Part shown: positions 30,902-38,111 of the stretch, one piece after another
Numbering within the stretch: position 1 is the stretch's first letter
Layout: each line of letters starts with the position of its first letter
DNA from: Niastella vici
Lineage (GTDB): Bacteria > Bacteroidota > Bacteroidia > Chitinophagales > Chitinophagaceae
Reading direction: 5' to 3'
Assembly (NCBI RefSeq): GCF_002077945.1
Contig: NZ_LVYD01000124.1
Location: 434,001 to 498,000, forward strand
DNA: 64,000 nucleotides
Notes under the pieces: generated by a model
Database searches by the model: none
Told to the model about the DNA's origin: nothing
The model's input: the letters and a program-made list of their open reading frames with translations, nothing else
Position numbers and translations under genes: made by a program

Positions 30902-31729
30902 TTATTTTTCAACCACCCTGAACCCCTGGTTGCTGAAAGAGGCATGAACATGTACCTGGCCAATGCTGTAAGAATTAAAGGCATGGCAGGCGCTGCTGCT
31001 GCACCACCAGCTGCCGCCGCGGGCATGGGCAATGGAAGGCCTTTCGGAAGGCGTTAATTTGCCGGTGCAGAACTCAAATACATTGCCATACATATCGTAT
31101 AAGCCCCAGGCATTGGGTTTAAAATGCCCAACAGGCGAGGTGTACATGTACCCATCGCTGTAATCGGCTTTTTTGTGATCGTGGCCATGCCATACGTTGG
31201 CATATGTTTTTATGGATCTGTCGTCGTTGCCAAAGAAATAATTGGTGTGCGTGCCGGCGCGGCAGGCAATTTCCCATTCATCGAGTGTAGGCAACCGTAC
31301 GCCGGCCCAGGTGCAATAGGCCTGCACATCGCGGTAACTGATGCAGGTAACGGGGTGGTTCATACGGTCGTTGATGCCGCCGCGGCTTACGCCATTGGGA
31401 TACCGCCAGTAAGCCGTACTGTCGTTCTTCCACCTGAACTCATCGAGCCCCGGTTCAAACACCAGGGCATTGTGCTGTTTTTCTGCGTCTGTTATATAAC
31501 CTGTGGCGGCAACAAATGCTGCAAACTCCCGGTTGGTGGTTTCGTAAATGGCAATGCGAAAACTATCCACGGTTACCTTCCGCAATGGATTTTGTGTGCT
31601 GGTGCTCTTCCCCACTTCGTAAATACCTTTTGGCACCACCACAAACTTTTTATGGTCCTGCGCCATGGCAGTTACTGCGCCCAGCAGCAGCACAAGCGCA
31701 AGCGCCTCCTTATTTCGCCTGTAGCCCAT
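30902..31729 (-). CDS. Secreted FGE/SUMF1-like (formylglycine-generating enzyme-type) protein
   Basis: 275 residues with a signal peptide ending AMAQ (residue 24). FGE-sulfatase fold motifs include FVVVPKGIYEVG, VTVDSFRIAIYETTNREFAAFV, HPVTCISYRDVQAYCTWAGVRLPTLDEWEIACRAG, NAWGLYDMYGNVFEFC, ARGGSWWCSSSACHAFNS and the terminal NQGFRVVEK. The Cys pair in the SWWCSSSACH region may or may not equal the catalytic pair of true FGE. The start overlaps the 3' end of the upstream lipoprotein gene by 20 bases, implying coupled translation. Confidence 0.87.
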   Translation of the reverse strand: MGYRRNKEALALVLLLGAVTAMAQDHKKFVVVPKGIYEVGKSTSTQNPLRKVTVDSFRIAIYETTNREFAAFVAATGYITDAEKQHNALVFEPGLDEFRWKNDSTAYWRYPNGVSRGGINDRMNHPVTCISYRDVQAYCTWAGVRLPTLDEWEIACRAGTHTNYFFGNDDRSIKTYANVWHGHDHKKADYSDGYMYTSPVGHFKPNAWGLYDMYGNVFEFCTGKLTPSERPSIAHARGGSWWCSSSACHAFNSYSIGQVHVHASFSNQGFRVVEK

Positions 31730-32504
31730 TGTAAAAATTAGTGGCCTGTTGAATTATAAGCGCTTCATTGGTATTATTGTATGTCAGGTGGGCGGAATAT
31801 CTACCTGTCTTCAGATCGTACAATGTCCGGTAAAAAGCAGATTTCATGAACTCAGGGTAATTATTTTCTTTCATCAACAACATAAGTGCAGTCAGTATGT
31901 AATGATCCTTCTTCTCTTTGTTATAGATCCCTATAAGCAAAGGGATAAGCTCTTGGGAATTCATGATAACAATGGCTTTCTTGAAATTTTCCCCTACCGC
32001 CCTGTTCTTTTCTATTACTGACTTTATCAGTTGTTGCACCGAATCGCGGTTATCCTTAAAAAAATTATATTGACGTGAACTCCAGCTGAATTCCCCGAAG
32101 ATATGTGGCAATTGTCCGTATATCCGGTTCGCTTCATCAGTTCTTGTGGGTAGTATAGAGCAATTCTGGCTGTAGCTTTCCGGGTGTATCATGTGATAGG
32201 TGAATTTTTCGTTAAATGAAAGCGAGTCATACACCTTCGCATCAAGCTGAGTTGCTACAATAAATTTGTCGGTAGATTCCGATTCCATCTTTGCTATCAG
32301 TGCTTTCAACCTATCAAGACCGTAAGGGGGTTCCATTATACTTTTATCTATAAATGGTATTAGCTTAAAAACATACTCTTCATCAGGGTTTGTTGCTTTT
32401 GAAGCAGTATCCTTTTTATGGGATGCATTTTGTGATCTTGCATCGGGTGCGGCACAGGCAAAAAGCGCCAGCATAAGGCCCAGGAATAAATAAAAAGGTT
32501 TCAT
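31710..32504 (-). CDS. Lipoprotein of unknown function, tandem paralogue 1
   Basis: 264 residues. Lipobox LMLALFAC (Cys17). The mature part is helical, with conserved MEPPYGLDRLKALI, LSFNEKFTYHMIHPESYSQNCSILPTRTDEANRIYGQLPHIFGEFSWSSRQ and a terminal NEALIIQQATNFYNGLQAK, all shared with the neighbouring paralogue at 32564-33382. The family is not recognised. Its 3' end overlaps the FGE-like gene. Confidence 0.8.
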   Translation of the reverse strand: MKPFYLFLGLMLALFACAAPDARSQNASHKKDTASKATNPDEEYVFKLIPFIDKSIMEPPYGLDRLKALIAKMESESTDKFIVATQLDAKVYDSLSFNEKFTYHMIHPESYSQNCSILPTRTDEANRIYGQLPHIFGEFSWSSRQYNFFKDNRDSVQQLIKSVIEKNRAVGENFKKAIVIMNSQELIPLLIGIYNKEKKDHYILTALMLLMKENNYPEFMKSAFYRTLYDLKTGRYSAHLTYNNTNEALIIQQATNFYNGLQAK

Positions 32505-32563
32505 AACGGTAAAATACTGATTTTATACAGGCACTACAAACGATATAAAGGATAAGAAAACGG

Positions 32564-33382
32564 TTATTTCGCCTGTAGCCCATTGTAAAAATTAGTGGCG
32601 CGTTGAATAATGAGGGCTTCATTCGCTTTATTATAAACGAGGTAAGCTCCATATTCATTTTCATATTGTTCATCCTTAAAGTCATACAATTTTTTGTATG
32701 AAGTGGAACTCATGAATTCGGGATACTTATTTTCTTTCATCAACAACATCAGTACTGTCAATACATAATGATCCTTCTTTTCTTTGTTATAGAATTCGAT
32801 CAAATAAGGGATCAGTTCTTTGGCATTCATTTCAACGATGGCTTCCCTGAAATTTCCGCCAATTTTTTTGTTGATCTGGATCAGGGGTTTCATCAGTTGT
32901 TCTACCGCATCGCGGTTCTCGGTAAAAAATTTCAGTTGCCGTTCGCTCCAGCTAAAATCCCCGAAAATATGGGGCAAATGTCCGTAAATGCGGTTCGCTT
33001 CATCCGTTCTTACGGGCAGGATAGCGCAGTTCTGGCTGTAGCTCTCTGCATGGATCATGTGATAGGTGAATTTTTCATTGAACGACAGCCCGACATACAG
33101 GTTTGCGTCGAGCGCTTTGGTTCCCATCTCCCCACCATCGGGGTCATCTACAAATTTAATTTTATCAATCAGGGCTTTTACGGTATCGAGGCCATAAGGC
33201 GGCACCGTTAAGTCATCTTCAGGATACGGGGTTAGTGAATCAACAGGCTCTTCCGAGGTGTTAGCTACGGTTGAAGCATTAGTATCTTTAATCAGCACAT
33301 CCTGCTTTTTGGTTTTTGTACCGGGTGACGAACAGGCAAAAAGCCCCAGGATAAAGGCCAGGGATAAACAGATCGTTTTCAT
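32564..33382 (-). CDS. Lipoprotein of unknown function, tandem paralogue 2
   Basis: 272 residues, lipobox FILGLFAC (Cys17). It is collinear with paralogue 1: VPPYGLDTVKALI, LSFNEKFTYHMIHAESYSQNCAILPVRTDEANRIYGHLPHIFGDFSWSERQ and the ending NFYNGLQAK. The DNA just after its stop still matches the paralogue's downstream overlap (TAGCCCATTGTAAAAATTAGTGGC on the plus strand, read across the stop), so the duplicated unit includes the gene's end. Function unknown; it is probably anchored in a membrane, facing the periplasm or surface. Confidence 0.8.
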   Translation of the reverse strand: MKTICLSLAFILGLFACSSPGTKTKKQDVLIKDTNASTVANTSEEPVDSLTPYPEDDLTVPPYGLDTVKALIDKIKFVDDPDGGEMGTKALDANLYVGLSFNEKFTYHMIHAESYSQNCAILPVRTDEANRIYGHLPHIFGDFSWSERQLKFFTENRDAVEQLMKPLIQINKKIGGNFREAIVEMNAKELIPYLIEFYNKEKKDHYVLTVLMLLMKENKYPEFMSSTSYKKLYDFKDEQYENEYGAYLVYNKANEALIIQRATNFYNGLQAK

Positions 33383-33561
33383 GGCCGTAAAATACTGCTT
33401 TTATGGAGATTACAAAATGGTGCCCGCATTAACAGGATGCAATATCACGAAAAGCATTCCCATAAATCTTAGTTAAATCCCCGTTCCTGCCTGCTTTATG
33501 CCATGCCAGGGAATATCTTAATCTTAATTTAGTATCGGGTTGCTGTTTAAATCCTTGGCTC

Positions 33562-34302
33562 ATGGGGAGAAGATCTACAAAACTCAAAATTGCTTTCTTT
33601 AGTGTATTGCTGACTGGCTTTGTTGTCATTCAATACAGTTATGTAATTTCCCTGCGAAAAGATAAATTGGAGCGATTCAAATCGCGGGTTATAAGCTGTA
33701 TGGCAAGAACCGGTGAAAAGATCGCTTCCAACAATTCGAAAGATGTTTTAACAAACAGCGAGCTTGCCTTCCTGCTTCAACAATCGTTTTCCGCCAAGGG
33801 ATTGGGCGATCTACAATTTGAATATTCTTTCGGTTCGGGCAATAAACAGCTTGCTTCGCGTGACTTTAATGAAAAACTAAAAGCCAACCCGGCTAATCTT
33901 GTTCTGTGTTATGAATTGCCTCCTTTTGGCCGGCAGGAAATTGCGGCTCCTCCTTTAACGCTGGTAGTACCTTACTGGAAGAAAATTGCTTTGAAAGAAC
34001 TGGGTTGGGTCATTGCAGCAGCCGTGTTTTTTACCTTAATGCTGGCAGCAATATTTTGGGTGGCCATTATCCTGGGCGACCGGCGGCAACAATTGTTTTA
34101 TGATAACCGGGAGAAGATCATACAATATTTGATGCAACAACTGGAAACCCCACTCAGCACCATGTCTGTTGCGGCCGAAGCCCTGCGCAACAAAACTGTC
34201 ATGCACGACCCCGGCCAAACCAGCTACTATCAACAGGTGATCAACGAAGAAAACAAACGCATGCGGGAACAGGTAGAAAAACTGCTGCGGGAGTTGATGT
34301 AG
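33562..34302 (+). CDS. Truncated histidine-kinase-like membrane protein lacking phosphoacceptor His
   Basis: 246 residues: TM helix about 9-29, extracytoplasmic region about 30-143, TM about 146-171, then a single HisKA-like helical pair. The expected H-E-x-x-T-P box reads MQQLETPLST, with Gln192 in place of His. The protein stops after the dimerisation helices (EQVEKLLRELM), with no HATPase domain. It is therefore kinase-dead: a decoy or dimer partner, or a decaying gene. The next gene converges 25 bases away. Confidence 0.7.
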   Translation: MGRRSTKLKIAFFSVLLTGFVVIQYSYVISLRKDKLERFKSRVISCMARTGEKIASNNSKDVLTNSELAFLLQQSFSAKGLGDLQFEYSFGSGNKQLASRDFNEKLKANPANLVLCYELPPFGRQEIAAPPLTLVVPYWKKIALKELGWVIAAAVFFTLMLAAIFWVAIILGDRRQQLFYDNREKIIQYLMQQLETPLSTMSVAAEALRNKTVMHDPGQTSYYQQVINEENKRMREQVEKLLRELM

Positions 34303-34326
34303 CTTGTAAAGTGATATCTTAAAGTA

Positions 34327-37300
34327 CTACATGCTACTTTTCATATCATATAAATTCGATCCCCCTCCCTCAAGTGTCTTATATTGCATTTTAGCATTAA
34401 ACGTAAAAAAGTCATAGGAAAAACGGGCAACTTTGGGAACCCATTTTTTCACTACCTCGGCATTACCCGGAAAACTTTGAACACTTATTATTTGATTTAT
34501 ATGTGGAGCCAGCCTTTCTGATTTCTCATCTAACAGCCTGATCAGGGTTTTTCTTTCGAACGCTTTGGCTATATTTTTCTGTTGTTCTGCATTAATTAAA
34601 AATATCGTAAATATTTCCCCGCACTGTGCAGGAAATCCGATCAACAAGGCTAATAAGAACATGGGCAATTGGAATTCCCCTGCTATTTCTGCAGTACCTT
34701 CAAATGTTGATAATTCTTCAGCTGGTACCCCTGCTTTTAGCAGGCGGTAAATATTTGTGAACCGTTTGGCAGAACGTGGCGATGTAATGAAAGGGAAAAG
34801 TTCTGCAGCAAACTTTGTCTCCCATTCTTTAATGCGCAGCGCTTCTTCTATAAGCTCATATTCCTCTTCTTTATCAACTTTGGTTTGCTTGCCTGCCAGG
34901 GTATCAATTTGTGTATTGGCATCCGACACATTACCTGACCCAATTATATTTTGTATTCCAGCATCTGGTCTGTTATTGCCTTGGCTGTCTGAACCCGGCG
35001 AATTGGGGTTTGTCGCTTGTCTCGTTTCCTGCGGCTCTTGTATCTGCTGGTTTGTACTGATCTCGGGTGACAACAAAGCATTCATCATAATATTAAATCC
35101 CTCTTCATTCATAGGTTCAAGGCCAAAGGGCACCTGGAATATCTTTTCCAAAAAATCATGTGGGGTTCCCATAAACAATTCACTATTTACCTTTCCATTA
35201 TTTTCTTTTTCAAATGTAAGGTAGGATGCCTCAAGAGATCTTATAAGCCACTTAGGATCTACACCCACTACCACTACAAATAAGGGATAAGCCAGCAACA
35301 AGTGCACAGCCTGCAAAACTTCCAATACTTTGTTAGGAGGACAACGATCAAGGTCGTCAATATAGAGTATGATCCGATCTACCTGTTTGTATTCTAGATG
35401 GGGAATGGTAGCTTTAGAATTCATTTTTTCCTGCAGCAATCTGAAATCTTCCCGGATTGTCGATATGATGCCAAGATGTTTCAGATAATCTACTGAACCA
35501 CATCGATCCTTTAAAAAAGTTGACAAGCTCCGCTCTTCGTAAAATGACCGCAGTTTTTCTTCCAGGGCAACTATACCGGAATTTGCCTGTTCAATTGTTC
35601 TTTTTTTCTCAGCAATATCCTTCTGCAGCGTATCAATATCTACCTTCAATTCATTTTCCCGCTCTGTGGCAACTTCTTTTTTCCTTTCGATCACCTCCTC
35701 GACGCTTTTTTTGGAAGCTTCAATGGTCTTGATCCCTGCTTTCACTTTATTCAGTCCATTTTTCAGAATAACAGCTATTCCACTAACAACAGTTGTAATT
35801 CCTGCCAGGAAAGCAGTAACTGCCGCCAGGGCATGTGTAAGCCAATCTTTAAGAACCCAGCCCAGCATGGGTATTCCAACGAGCAACAATACGAGTAAAA
35901 CAATGATAACCGTTCTATTAGGGGAATTTATAACAGATAGGAACAGATTATTGATGGTTCCTCTTACAGTTTTTGCATCCTGCAATATGTTATCGAGATC
36001 ATGAATACTTTTTCGCGTAGCAGGCAGCCCTATTTCTTTTATAGATTGAGCCAGTTTTTCGTTTTGCTCTTTATCAAGCATTTCTTCAATATCATTCAGA
36101 TTTATTTCTTTCAGTTCCACAATCCTTGTAAGACGCTGGTGCTCTAATCTTTTAAGCTCAGTTTCCTTTTCTTCCAACTGAGAAATCTGTATTTGTTTCA
36201 GGTCTTCAATATCCTGCTGTTCCTTCTTTTTATTATCAATCTGCTTTTGTAAATTCTCTACCTGTTCTTTTTCAGACATGTGTGGTATTACAAAGCCTGC
36301 CAATGTTTTGAAAATATTATGTGCCAAACTGGCCAGCAGGTTCGTATCCAGGTAATGCCAGGCATTGAATTCCACTTCTACTATCTTGGTATGAAAAGGT
36401 GACAGAGGGTCTTCATTGTATATTTTTTTAACAGTTTTAACCTCTTCCCTCAACGCATGCATAAAGAAACTTTTTCCGGAACCCCATTTACCAAATAAGC
36501 CAATTGCCAGCGGTGGATTAATATCTTTAGCAAGCATTACAGCTGACAGGTTCTTTACATCATTGGTAATATTAAGATAATCTTTTTTAGGATCAATTGA
36601 ATCAGAAGCATATCCTGCAATAGCCGAAACCGGAGATACTTTTCGTGTGCGGTAATTTCTTAGTATACGTTTTAGACCATTCGCTGATAACCTGAATTCG
36701 TTGTTGCTACGTGCTGCATTGAGCGCCTGATCCACTTCAATATCAGGCAGCACAAATAACACCCAGGCAAGCCGGTACATAGTGCCCGCATCTGAAAAGT
36801 TGACTACACCGATTAATCGATCTACAAAACCATTAATAGTAATAAGTTCTGTTATATAAGGCACAGCTGCTTTCGCCATTTCCGGATTGGTCAACGCATT
36901 TAACGCGTCATAAGCCAGTGGTTGAGCAGGCATTAATTCTCTAATAAGCCGTACTACACTTTTGGCAAGACGAGGCATAGGCACTATACGAAGAATGCGT
37001 AACACTTTCCATCGGGGAAGAAATTCATCCTGTTGTAAACATTCTGCGAAGTGTGATTCAATATTTTCTGACGATTGAATTGCTAAAACAAACATCATCA
37101 TTAAAGAACCTGGAGACTCCTGAAATTTTAACTGATCGATCGCAGCTTGCAGGTAAGTTACTTTCTCCCTGTACAGACCCGCCAATAGCCAATACTGAAT
37201 AGTTACATCTGGTTCGATGTCGGACATTAAATGCTCCAGCAGCATTTCTTTATTTTCCTTGCGTTCTGCACCTGTACAAATGAGCGCACTTAACATCCAT

Positions 37301-37962
37301 GATCTGATAGAAATCATTTTATCCAATGGGCGAACATTTCGTCCCAATTCATTGGCTATTCCATGCCTGAACTTTGTTGTTATATCATTACGCAGCCGCA
37401 CGGCGATACTCTCTTTGTCAACCTCACCCATACTACTAATCTGTTTCAATACCTCCGATCTTTGCTCATCGTTGCCATCCATAAGCGTTATGAATACCTG
37501 GTCAAATTTGGACACATGGTCATCCTGTTTCCCAGGCAAGCCAATTGCCTTTAACAGGTCACGGATAAACTGTTCTGATAGGCTGGTGAGATTTACATAT
37601 CTGAAATCAGCAAACAGCCGATCTGCTTCTAAATAAGCATCTGCCTGCGGCTCACCGATAAGGACCGGAATAATTTCTTTTTTTGCATCCTGCGCCAGCT
37701 TTACCAAACGCAAATGATTTGGTCCCCATCCCAAGGTACCAAGGCAAACTATTATTTTTCTGGCCAGATGCATGTGATACTCTTCACCTTCTTCTATTTT
37801 CTGACCAAATTGCACATCTTTTCTCCAAAAGAAGGTAGTATAGCCTCGCTCTTCAAGAATATTGACAATCCTTTCTACATATTTAAATTCCTCTTCCTTA
37901 TACAAAAAAAGAACATCCACTTGCCCTTTAGGCTGATCTGAAAGTATTGTTTCGCTTTGCAT
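34327..37962 (-). CDS. TIR-like / helical-repeat / KAP P-loop NTPase membrane protein (candidate anti-phage defence)
   Basis: 1211 residues. Residues about 14-145 read as a TIR-type domain (VDVLFLYKEEEFKYVERIVNIL, TFFWRKDVQFGQKIEEG, IIVCLGTLGWGP, EIIPVLIGEP). The Glu expected after the GP motif in NAD-cleaving TIRs is not evident (GPNHLRLVKLA). Residues 150-445 are HEAT-like helices. The KAP NTPase follows: Walker A GKWGSGKS 491-498, FNAWHY 532-537, coiled coil about 565-630, two membrane helices (about 683-702 and 710-733), second coiled coil about 740-815, Walker B RIILYIDDLDRCPP from 863. The C-terminal part is helical with a Gln/Asn/Gly-rich insert. KAP NTPases include phage-exclusion proteins. 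It is monocistronic and AT-richer than its neighbours. Confidence 0.85.
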   Translation of the reverse strand: MQSETILSDQPKGQVDVLFLYKEEEFKYVERIVNILEERGYTTFFWRKDVQFGQKIEEGEEYHMHLARKIIVCLGTLGWGPNHLRLVKLAQDAKKEIIPVLIGEPQADAYLEADRLFADFRYVNLTSLSEQFIRDLLKAIGLPGKQDDHVSKFDQVFITLMDGNDEQRSEVLKQISSMGEVDKESIAVRLRNDITTKFRHGIANELGRNVRPLDKMISIRSWMLSALICTGAERKENKEMLLEHLMSDIEPDVTIQYWLLAGLYREKVTYLQAAIDQLKFQESPGSLMMMFVLAIQSSENIESHFAECLQQDEFLPRWKVLRILRIVPMPRLAKSVVRLIRELMPAQPLAYDALNALTNPEMAKAAVPYITELITINGFVDRLIGVVNFSDAGTMYRLAWVLFVLPDIEVDQALNAARSNNEFRLSANGLKRILRNYRTRKVSPVSAIAGYASDSIDPKKDYLNITNDVKNLSAVMLAKDINPPLAIGLFGKWGSGKSFFMHALREEVKTVKKIYNEDPLSPFHTKIVEVEFNAWHYLDTNLLASLAHNIFKTLAGFVIPHMSEKEQVENLQKQIDNKKKEQQDIEDLKQIQISQLEEKETELKRLEHQRLTRIVELKEINLNDIEEMLDKEQNEKLAQSIKEIGLPATRKSIHDLDNILQDAKTVRGTINNLFLSVINSPNRTVIIVLLVLLLVGIPMLGWVLKDWLTHALAAVTAFLAGITTVVSGIAVILKNGLNKVKAGIKTIEASKKSVEEVIERKKEVATERENELKVDIDTLQKDIAEKKRTIEQANSGIVALEEKLRSFYEERSLSTFLKDRCGSVDYLKHLGIISTIREDFRLLQEKMNSKATIPHLEYKQVDRIILYIDDLDRCPPNKVLEVLQAVHLLLAYPLFVVVVGVDPKWLIRSLEASYLTFEKENNGKVNSELFMGTPHDFLEKIFQVPFGLEPMNEEGFNIMMNALLSPEISTNQQIQEPQETRQATNPNSPGSDSQGNNRPDAGIQNIIGSGNVSDANTQIDTLAGKQTKVDKEEEYELIEEALRIKEWETKFAAELFPFITSPRSAKRFTNIYRLLKAGVPAEELSTFEGTAEIAGEFQLPMFLLALLIGFPAQCGEIFTIFLINAEQQKNIAKAFERKTLIRLLDEKSERLAPHINQIISVQSFPGNAEVVKKWVPKVARFSYDFFTFNAKMQYKTLEGGGSNLYDMKSSM

Positions 37963-38111
37963 AGATGAAGGGGATAATTGAAGCTTCTTAAAATAGCTGG
38001 AAGTTATTAGGAATTAGGCGAATTGAACACCGTTTTTTCACCCTTTTTACCAATTGGAGAACAGGATCAGTTGCCAACATCTATCAGAATGTTTATTCGA
38101 TTTTACATCGT

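Follow-up and report, generated by a model that had tools for sequence, protein, structure and literature searches.

What might a bacterial gene do that carries a TIR domain, a helical repeat region and a KAP NTPase in a single chain? The question is raised by an open frame of 1211 amino acids at 34327..37962, on the minus strand, in a 64,000-nucleotide stretch of Niastella vici DNA (assembly GCF_002077945.1, contig NZ_LVYD01000124.1, positions 434,001 to 498,000), referred to here as the window. This TIR-HEAT-KAP gene had been put forward, in an original prediction made from the sequence alone, as a candidate single-gene defence system. We infer that members of its clade most likely work, as Tmn does, as immune NTPases at the membrane, and that their TIR domain is missing its NADase residue.

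Domain content of the TIR-HEAT-KAP protein

Profile matches and structure models confirmed the observation from which the prediction started, that TIR, helical repeat and KAP parts share one gene, and together they show the domain content of the protein. The parts are described below, all of them on the minus strand. The N-terminal TIR fold (residues about 14-141; 37540..37923) was recovered alike by a Pfam profile, by the AlphaFold2 (AF2) model and by Foldseek, and a spurious TIR is ruled out by the profile match and the fold. The HEAT/ARM-like region (residues about 152-441; 36640..37509) forms helical repeats in the AF2 model and matches PP2A-A/importin in Foldseek, and Pfam detected HEAT_2 in four of the eight family members. 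When the full-length protein was compared with the sequences of the PDB, zero matches were obtained at E<=1. A pseudogene or frameshift chimera was ruled out, as the frame is single and open and the same domain order is found in distant species.

The KAP domain (residues about 456-1075 including an insertion; 34738..36597) scored 105.8 bits against the Pfam family KAP_NTPase (PF07693), where the curated cut-off is 20 (E 3.3e-30). Walker A, GKWGSGKS (residues 491-498; 36469..36492), and Walker B, IILYIDDLDRC (residues 864-874; 35341..35373), with its DD in LYIDDLDRC at 866-874, are both intact. Two hydrophobic segments at 685-703 and 715-733 (35764..35910), found in a Kyte-Doolittle scan, fall between the two motifs, where they are predicted to form the KAP membrane insertion. 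This feature of KAP NTPases is named in the title of a 2004 paper by Aravind and colleagues. Coiled coils had been claimed alongside the membrane helices; the full-length AF2 model has two long charged helices, one of them coiled-coil-like and preceding the membrane segments (residues about 564-618; 36109..36273), for which composition also speaks, and the other following them (residues about 734-809; 35536..35763). The same model places a helical region at the C-terminus (residues about 1062-1194; 34381..34779). All 49 proteins scored, window protein included, have one or more hydrophobic segments between the Walker motifs, and 22 of the 49 have exactly two at a threshold of 1.6; the 49 came from 67 loci, after 11 without a qualifying open reading frame (ORF), five short or partial ones and two without the motif pair were left out.

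The catalytic column of the TIR domain

The glutamate of WxxxE is the catalytic residue of SARM1-type TIR domains. A profile built from seven TIR domains matched AbTir and PdTIR in the PDB (E about 1e-3) and aligned the AbTir stretch WTNYE with WGktq; in a search of the same database with Profile A3, coiled-coil matches predominated and TIRs appeared near E 0.7-1. It can be seen from an alignment with three further TIRs that the WxxxE column holds His in the window copy, in Rhodoplanes (L010) and in Hymenobacter (L011), and Gln in Sinorhizobium (L006), a Burkholderiales metagenome-assembled genome (L012), Aquabacterium (L014) and Variovorax (L050), so that Glu is replaced in seven of seven. 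The last three are close kin (75-87% identical) and the seven TIRs are not all independent. Glu is kept in all three TIRs from outside the clade, two from other KAP proteins (L016 and L061) and one from the window's own genome (L086), the latter being the one of five fetched loci that was caught by the script's motif.

In the window copy the residue is His83 (codon 37714..37716), on a helix that spans residues 81-92 of the AF2 model, and there is no acidic residue at 76-91. A Glu two residues past the WxxxE position in Sinorhizobium was set aside as a catalytic residue, because both the AbTir profile alignment and the wider TIR alignment place Gln in the column. The original prediction that the Glu needed for NAD cleavage is missing therefore holds, and alignment and model show the loss to be clade-wide. 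This sets the clade apart from the TIRs of SARM1, SPARTA and AbTir, which have the catalytic Glu in this column. With the NAD-destroying residue gone, any defence against phage would probably take another route.

In the genome of the window, TIR_2 was hit 12 times, the TIR-HEAT-KAP gene counted in. Six of them lie within about 33 kb on contig C45 (2953-35678, taken up in part by L085, L086, L088 and L089), a cluster that looks like a TIR-rich defence region.

Relatives and genomic distribution

A tblastn search of plasmids returned six records, of which only that of Sinorhizobium sp. RAC02 (L006) is full length, with 33.8% identity over 96%. A pattern scan of genome contigs combined with a two-sequence alignment gave 56 loci; as these were retrieved by exact patterns, locus numbers are not frequencies. 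The match starts in the TIR domain in Rhodoplanes, Hymenobacter, the Burkholderiales genome, Aquabacterium and Variovorax, the frame of the last being broken near the start of KAP. In Herbaspirillum (L013) it starts within the HEAT part, near a contig end, and in Solibacteraceae (L015), from an assembly with N letters, the HEAT-KAP part follows a different N-terminus. The window protein is 30.6-35.1% identical to these eight, Sinorhizobium counted. In a KAP-core tree of 49 rows, the truncated Herbaspirillum protein groups with the six TIR-HEAT proteins in one clade (support 100/99) in which Bacteroidota and Pseudomonadota are mixed. We conclude that TIR-HEAT-KAP proteins make up a rare, recurrent and horizontally spread group. 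Protein-only scans of genome contigs and viral contigs found zero relatives, tblastn of the phage collection gave zero matches, and viral contigs scanned with alignment gave two short KAP matches only.

Within its genus the gene was found in one of ten genomes, its own, one of the nine others being 61% complete. Across the order, four of 298 genomes match at E<=1e-10, own included, the other three aligning only from residue 447 or later; across the class, a TIR-HEAT profile matched one genome of 395, again its own. In two genus relatives (L082 and L083) a hydrolase-like gene and a gene like that at 32564-33382 lie about 70 bases apart, and the stretch 33383..38111 (no strand assigned), which comprises the TIR-HEAT-KAP gene and a short kinase-like gene at 33562-34302, is absent from that site; neighbour genes in the window and its relatives were named by eye. 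No flanking repeats that could mark an insertion bracket this 4.7-kb stretch. The TIR-HEAT-KAP gene is thus accessory.

The kinase-like gene encodes a membrane protein of 246 amino acids that by eye resembles the first half of a histidine kinase, and genes 45-56% identical to it occur at differing places in four genus relatives. In two genus relatives other than L082 and L083 (L078 and L079) it adjoins a DoxX-like gene, so that it may have moved independently. Window positions 31710-33382 hold a tandem pair of related genes, present as a single copy in two relatives.

The wider KAP family carries varied N-termini. When 26 proteins or N-terminal pieces were scanned with Pfam, TIR was found in P0002, L016 and L061 (L061 also with a SLOG match below cut-off), caspase plus WD40-type domains in L025, L041 and L042, WD40 in P0005 and L044, EVE in L024 and L027, peptidoglycan-binding domains in L033 and L046, and TPR in L048; the remaining 13 of the 26 gave no confident N-terminal family. 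Since in the KAP-core tree L016 pairs with L021, which has no Pfam hit, and L061 with L029, which is outside the Pfam-scanned set, TIR has probably been joined to KAP more than once. L061:6294-10376, from Planctomycetota, is a single chain of TIR, the sub-cut-off SLOG match and KAP in which the TIR glutamate is retained. Two KAP proteins of the same order (L003:538-3741 and L004:1003-4161) have an N-terminal domain that is macro-like by eye, with no Pfam match there, and the window's genome holds a second KAP NTPase region (C65:46284-47308) divided over frames, with an internal TGA.

Proposed defence role and its alternatives

Tmn is a single gene. Its product, a KAP NTPase carrying two membrane segments, inhibits the phages T2, P1, phiVi and phiX, and how it does so is described as unexplored (PMC11846954; also PMC13273231). 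These features of NTPase and membrane segments are common to Tmn and the window protein, whereas the TIR-HEAT front end of the latter is not named for Tmn in what was available of that description (PMC11846954), by which the two were compared. We favour, tentatively and with rather less than even confidence, a single-gene, membrane-anchored anti-phage KAP NTPase like Tmn with an added TIR-HEAT front end. The HEAT repeats would bind either a product of the phage or an alteration that it causes in the cell; the KAP domain would then be free to bind or hydrolyse ATP and would oligomerise at the inner membrane, held there by the hairpin that separates its two Walker motifs; the clustered TIR domains, lacking the catalytic glutamate, would act as an assembly scaffold and not as an NADase; and the coiled-coil and transmembrane part would disrupt the membrane or block phage entry or replication there. 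Trigger, oligomerisation, membrane effect and anti-phage outcome are what we infer.

A number of results weigh against this reading. Among the best 50 Foldseek rows for the full-length model there were TIRs and helical repeats, but an NTPase fold was absent, and PADLOC gave no Tmn-named match to the window protein at E<=1, it being uncertain whether the library holds a Tmn model. Two stretches of the window protein's KAP NTPase align with QatA, from the Qat system, in NCBIfam (E 6.6e-16), but the match is partial and reaches 58.1 bits against an equivalog cut-off of 600; Qat partner genes were not sought by name. PifA is a phage exclusion protein; two partial KAP stretches of it align in PADLOC (E 2.7e-11), the best spanning just 13-114 of 720 profile positions. 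By inspection, the Rhodoplanes and Herbaspirillum copies, like that of the window, lie among ordinary-looking genes. A PADLOC test of gene neighbourhoods, of the kind proposed with the prediction, did not bear out an excess of defence genes: 16 families were matched by 111 flanking ORFs and 29 by 101 control ORFs (E<=1e-8, counted per family, with a control from one genus only, 25 of whose 29 families were listed). The flanks include LmuA, ZorB, ThsB and Avs1a; AriA and mad3 occur in flank and control sets alike, and many control families are helicase-type. Given this overlap, the one-genus control and the counting per family, the test is weak either way. We know of no phage phenotype for a TIR-HEAT-KAP protein.

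One alternative, which we consider unlikely, is an immune receptor whose Glu-less TIR serves as an adaptor: once active it would bring in, in trans, an enzyme encoded elsewhere, such as SIR2 or a different TIR NADase, cell death following from NAD loss. On the Sinorhizobium plasmid a gene annotated as DUF4062, part of which is a ThsA-like SIR2 (L006:16524-17810), lies 166 bases upstream of the full-length homologue on the same strand, matches the ThsA SIR2 models of PADLOC at E 5e-16, and could form a two-gene system with it. DarT, macro, SIR2 and HerA genes follow downstream, and the homologue thus lies in a defence island (SIR2-HerA, DarT and the ThsA-like SIR2 gene). On a Rhizobium CC1099 plasmid (L008:6690-12438) the gene of a KAP relative, a SIR2 gene and a nucleoside 2-deoxyribosyltransferase gene come one after another, with overlaps of a few bases, and the 12 TIR_2 hits of the window's genome also speak for this reading. 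However, no such partner was seen, by inspection, beside the window or Rhodoplanes copies, and the upstream gene varies, being DUF4062-SIR2 in Sinorhizobium but a DUF4238-family gene, immediately upstream, in both Aquabacterium and Variovorax. As for Thoeris, no ThsA/ThsB pair is among the 25 of 29 PADLOC families listed for the control set, which includes the window's neighbours. Elsewhere, a PDC-M49A-like gene lies about 2 kb downstream in the Burkholderiales genome, a PDC-M54A-like NTPase gene that also weakly matches Avs4 (E 2e-4) lies near the Variovorax copy, and in Hymenobacter two neighbours scanned with Pfam and one with PADLOC gave zero matches.

That the protein has no part in defence, and is a membrane signalling or stress protein sharing these domains by chance, we hold to be just as unlikely. 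The ordinary-looking window neighbours and the lack of PADLOC enrichment fit it, but it is unusual for a housekeeping protein to be so patchily and horizontally distributed, to have empty sites in relatives and to exchange domains of the effector type. An enzymatic TIR that acts as the effector through a different catalytic residue, as NADase or in base exchange or cyclisation, is less probable still, given His or Gln in seven of seven and no acidic residue at 76-91 of the window copy.

The original prediction is thus upheld in part. Its architecture and missing glutamate hold, and no evident partner gene was seen alongside the window copy by eye. The defence role it proposed draws indirect support from the empty sites, the horizontal spread, the Sinorhizobium island and the swappable immune-type domains; no defence island was seen in the window, and the flank test was negative. 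The prediction knew of no characterised system in which the domains follow one another in this way, and in agreement with it no named TIR-HEAT-KAP protein was found in the open-access literature searched, seen in part and with most subscription journals outside its scope.

The accessible parts of published accounts describe KAP as replacing STAND NTPases in conflict-system proteins whose N-terminus is an effector or adaptor domain; TIR is named as one such domain, and not for KAP proteins specifically (PMC8195603; PMC10907252). KAP is also named beside defence genes (PMC10853773). TIR-HEAT-KAP was described in none of these parts, those on Tmn included. The window protein resembles NLRs in modular layout only, with zero NACHT or NB-ARC Pfam matches listed at E<=10. 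The wider family suggests that KAP NTPases serve as a membrane-bound counterpart to STAND/NLR receptors. It is conceivable, if doubtful, that TIR-HEAT-KAP proteins are bacterial immune receptors of a new, membrane-bound class, in which a Glu-less TIR would be a structural assembly module, by analogy with animal Toll/MyD88, and the KAP transmembrane hairpin the effector; they would be a single branch of a broad family of KAP receptors whose sensor and effector domains can be exchanged. The mechanism of Tmn, a KAP protein that has membrane segments and was tested against phage, was called unexplored in 2025 (PMC11846954). A clade in which KAP is coupled to a TIR that lacks the catalytic residue would separate scaffold from enzyme within one gene, and would thereby make purely assembly-based signalling by a bacterial TIR directly testable.
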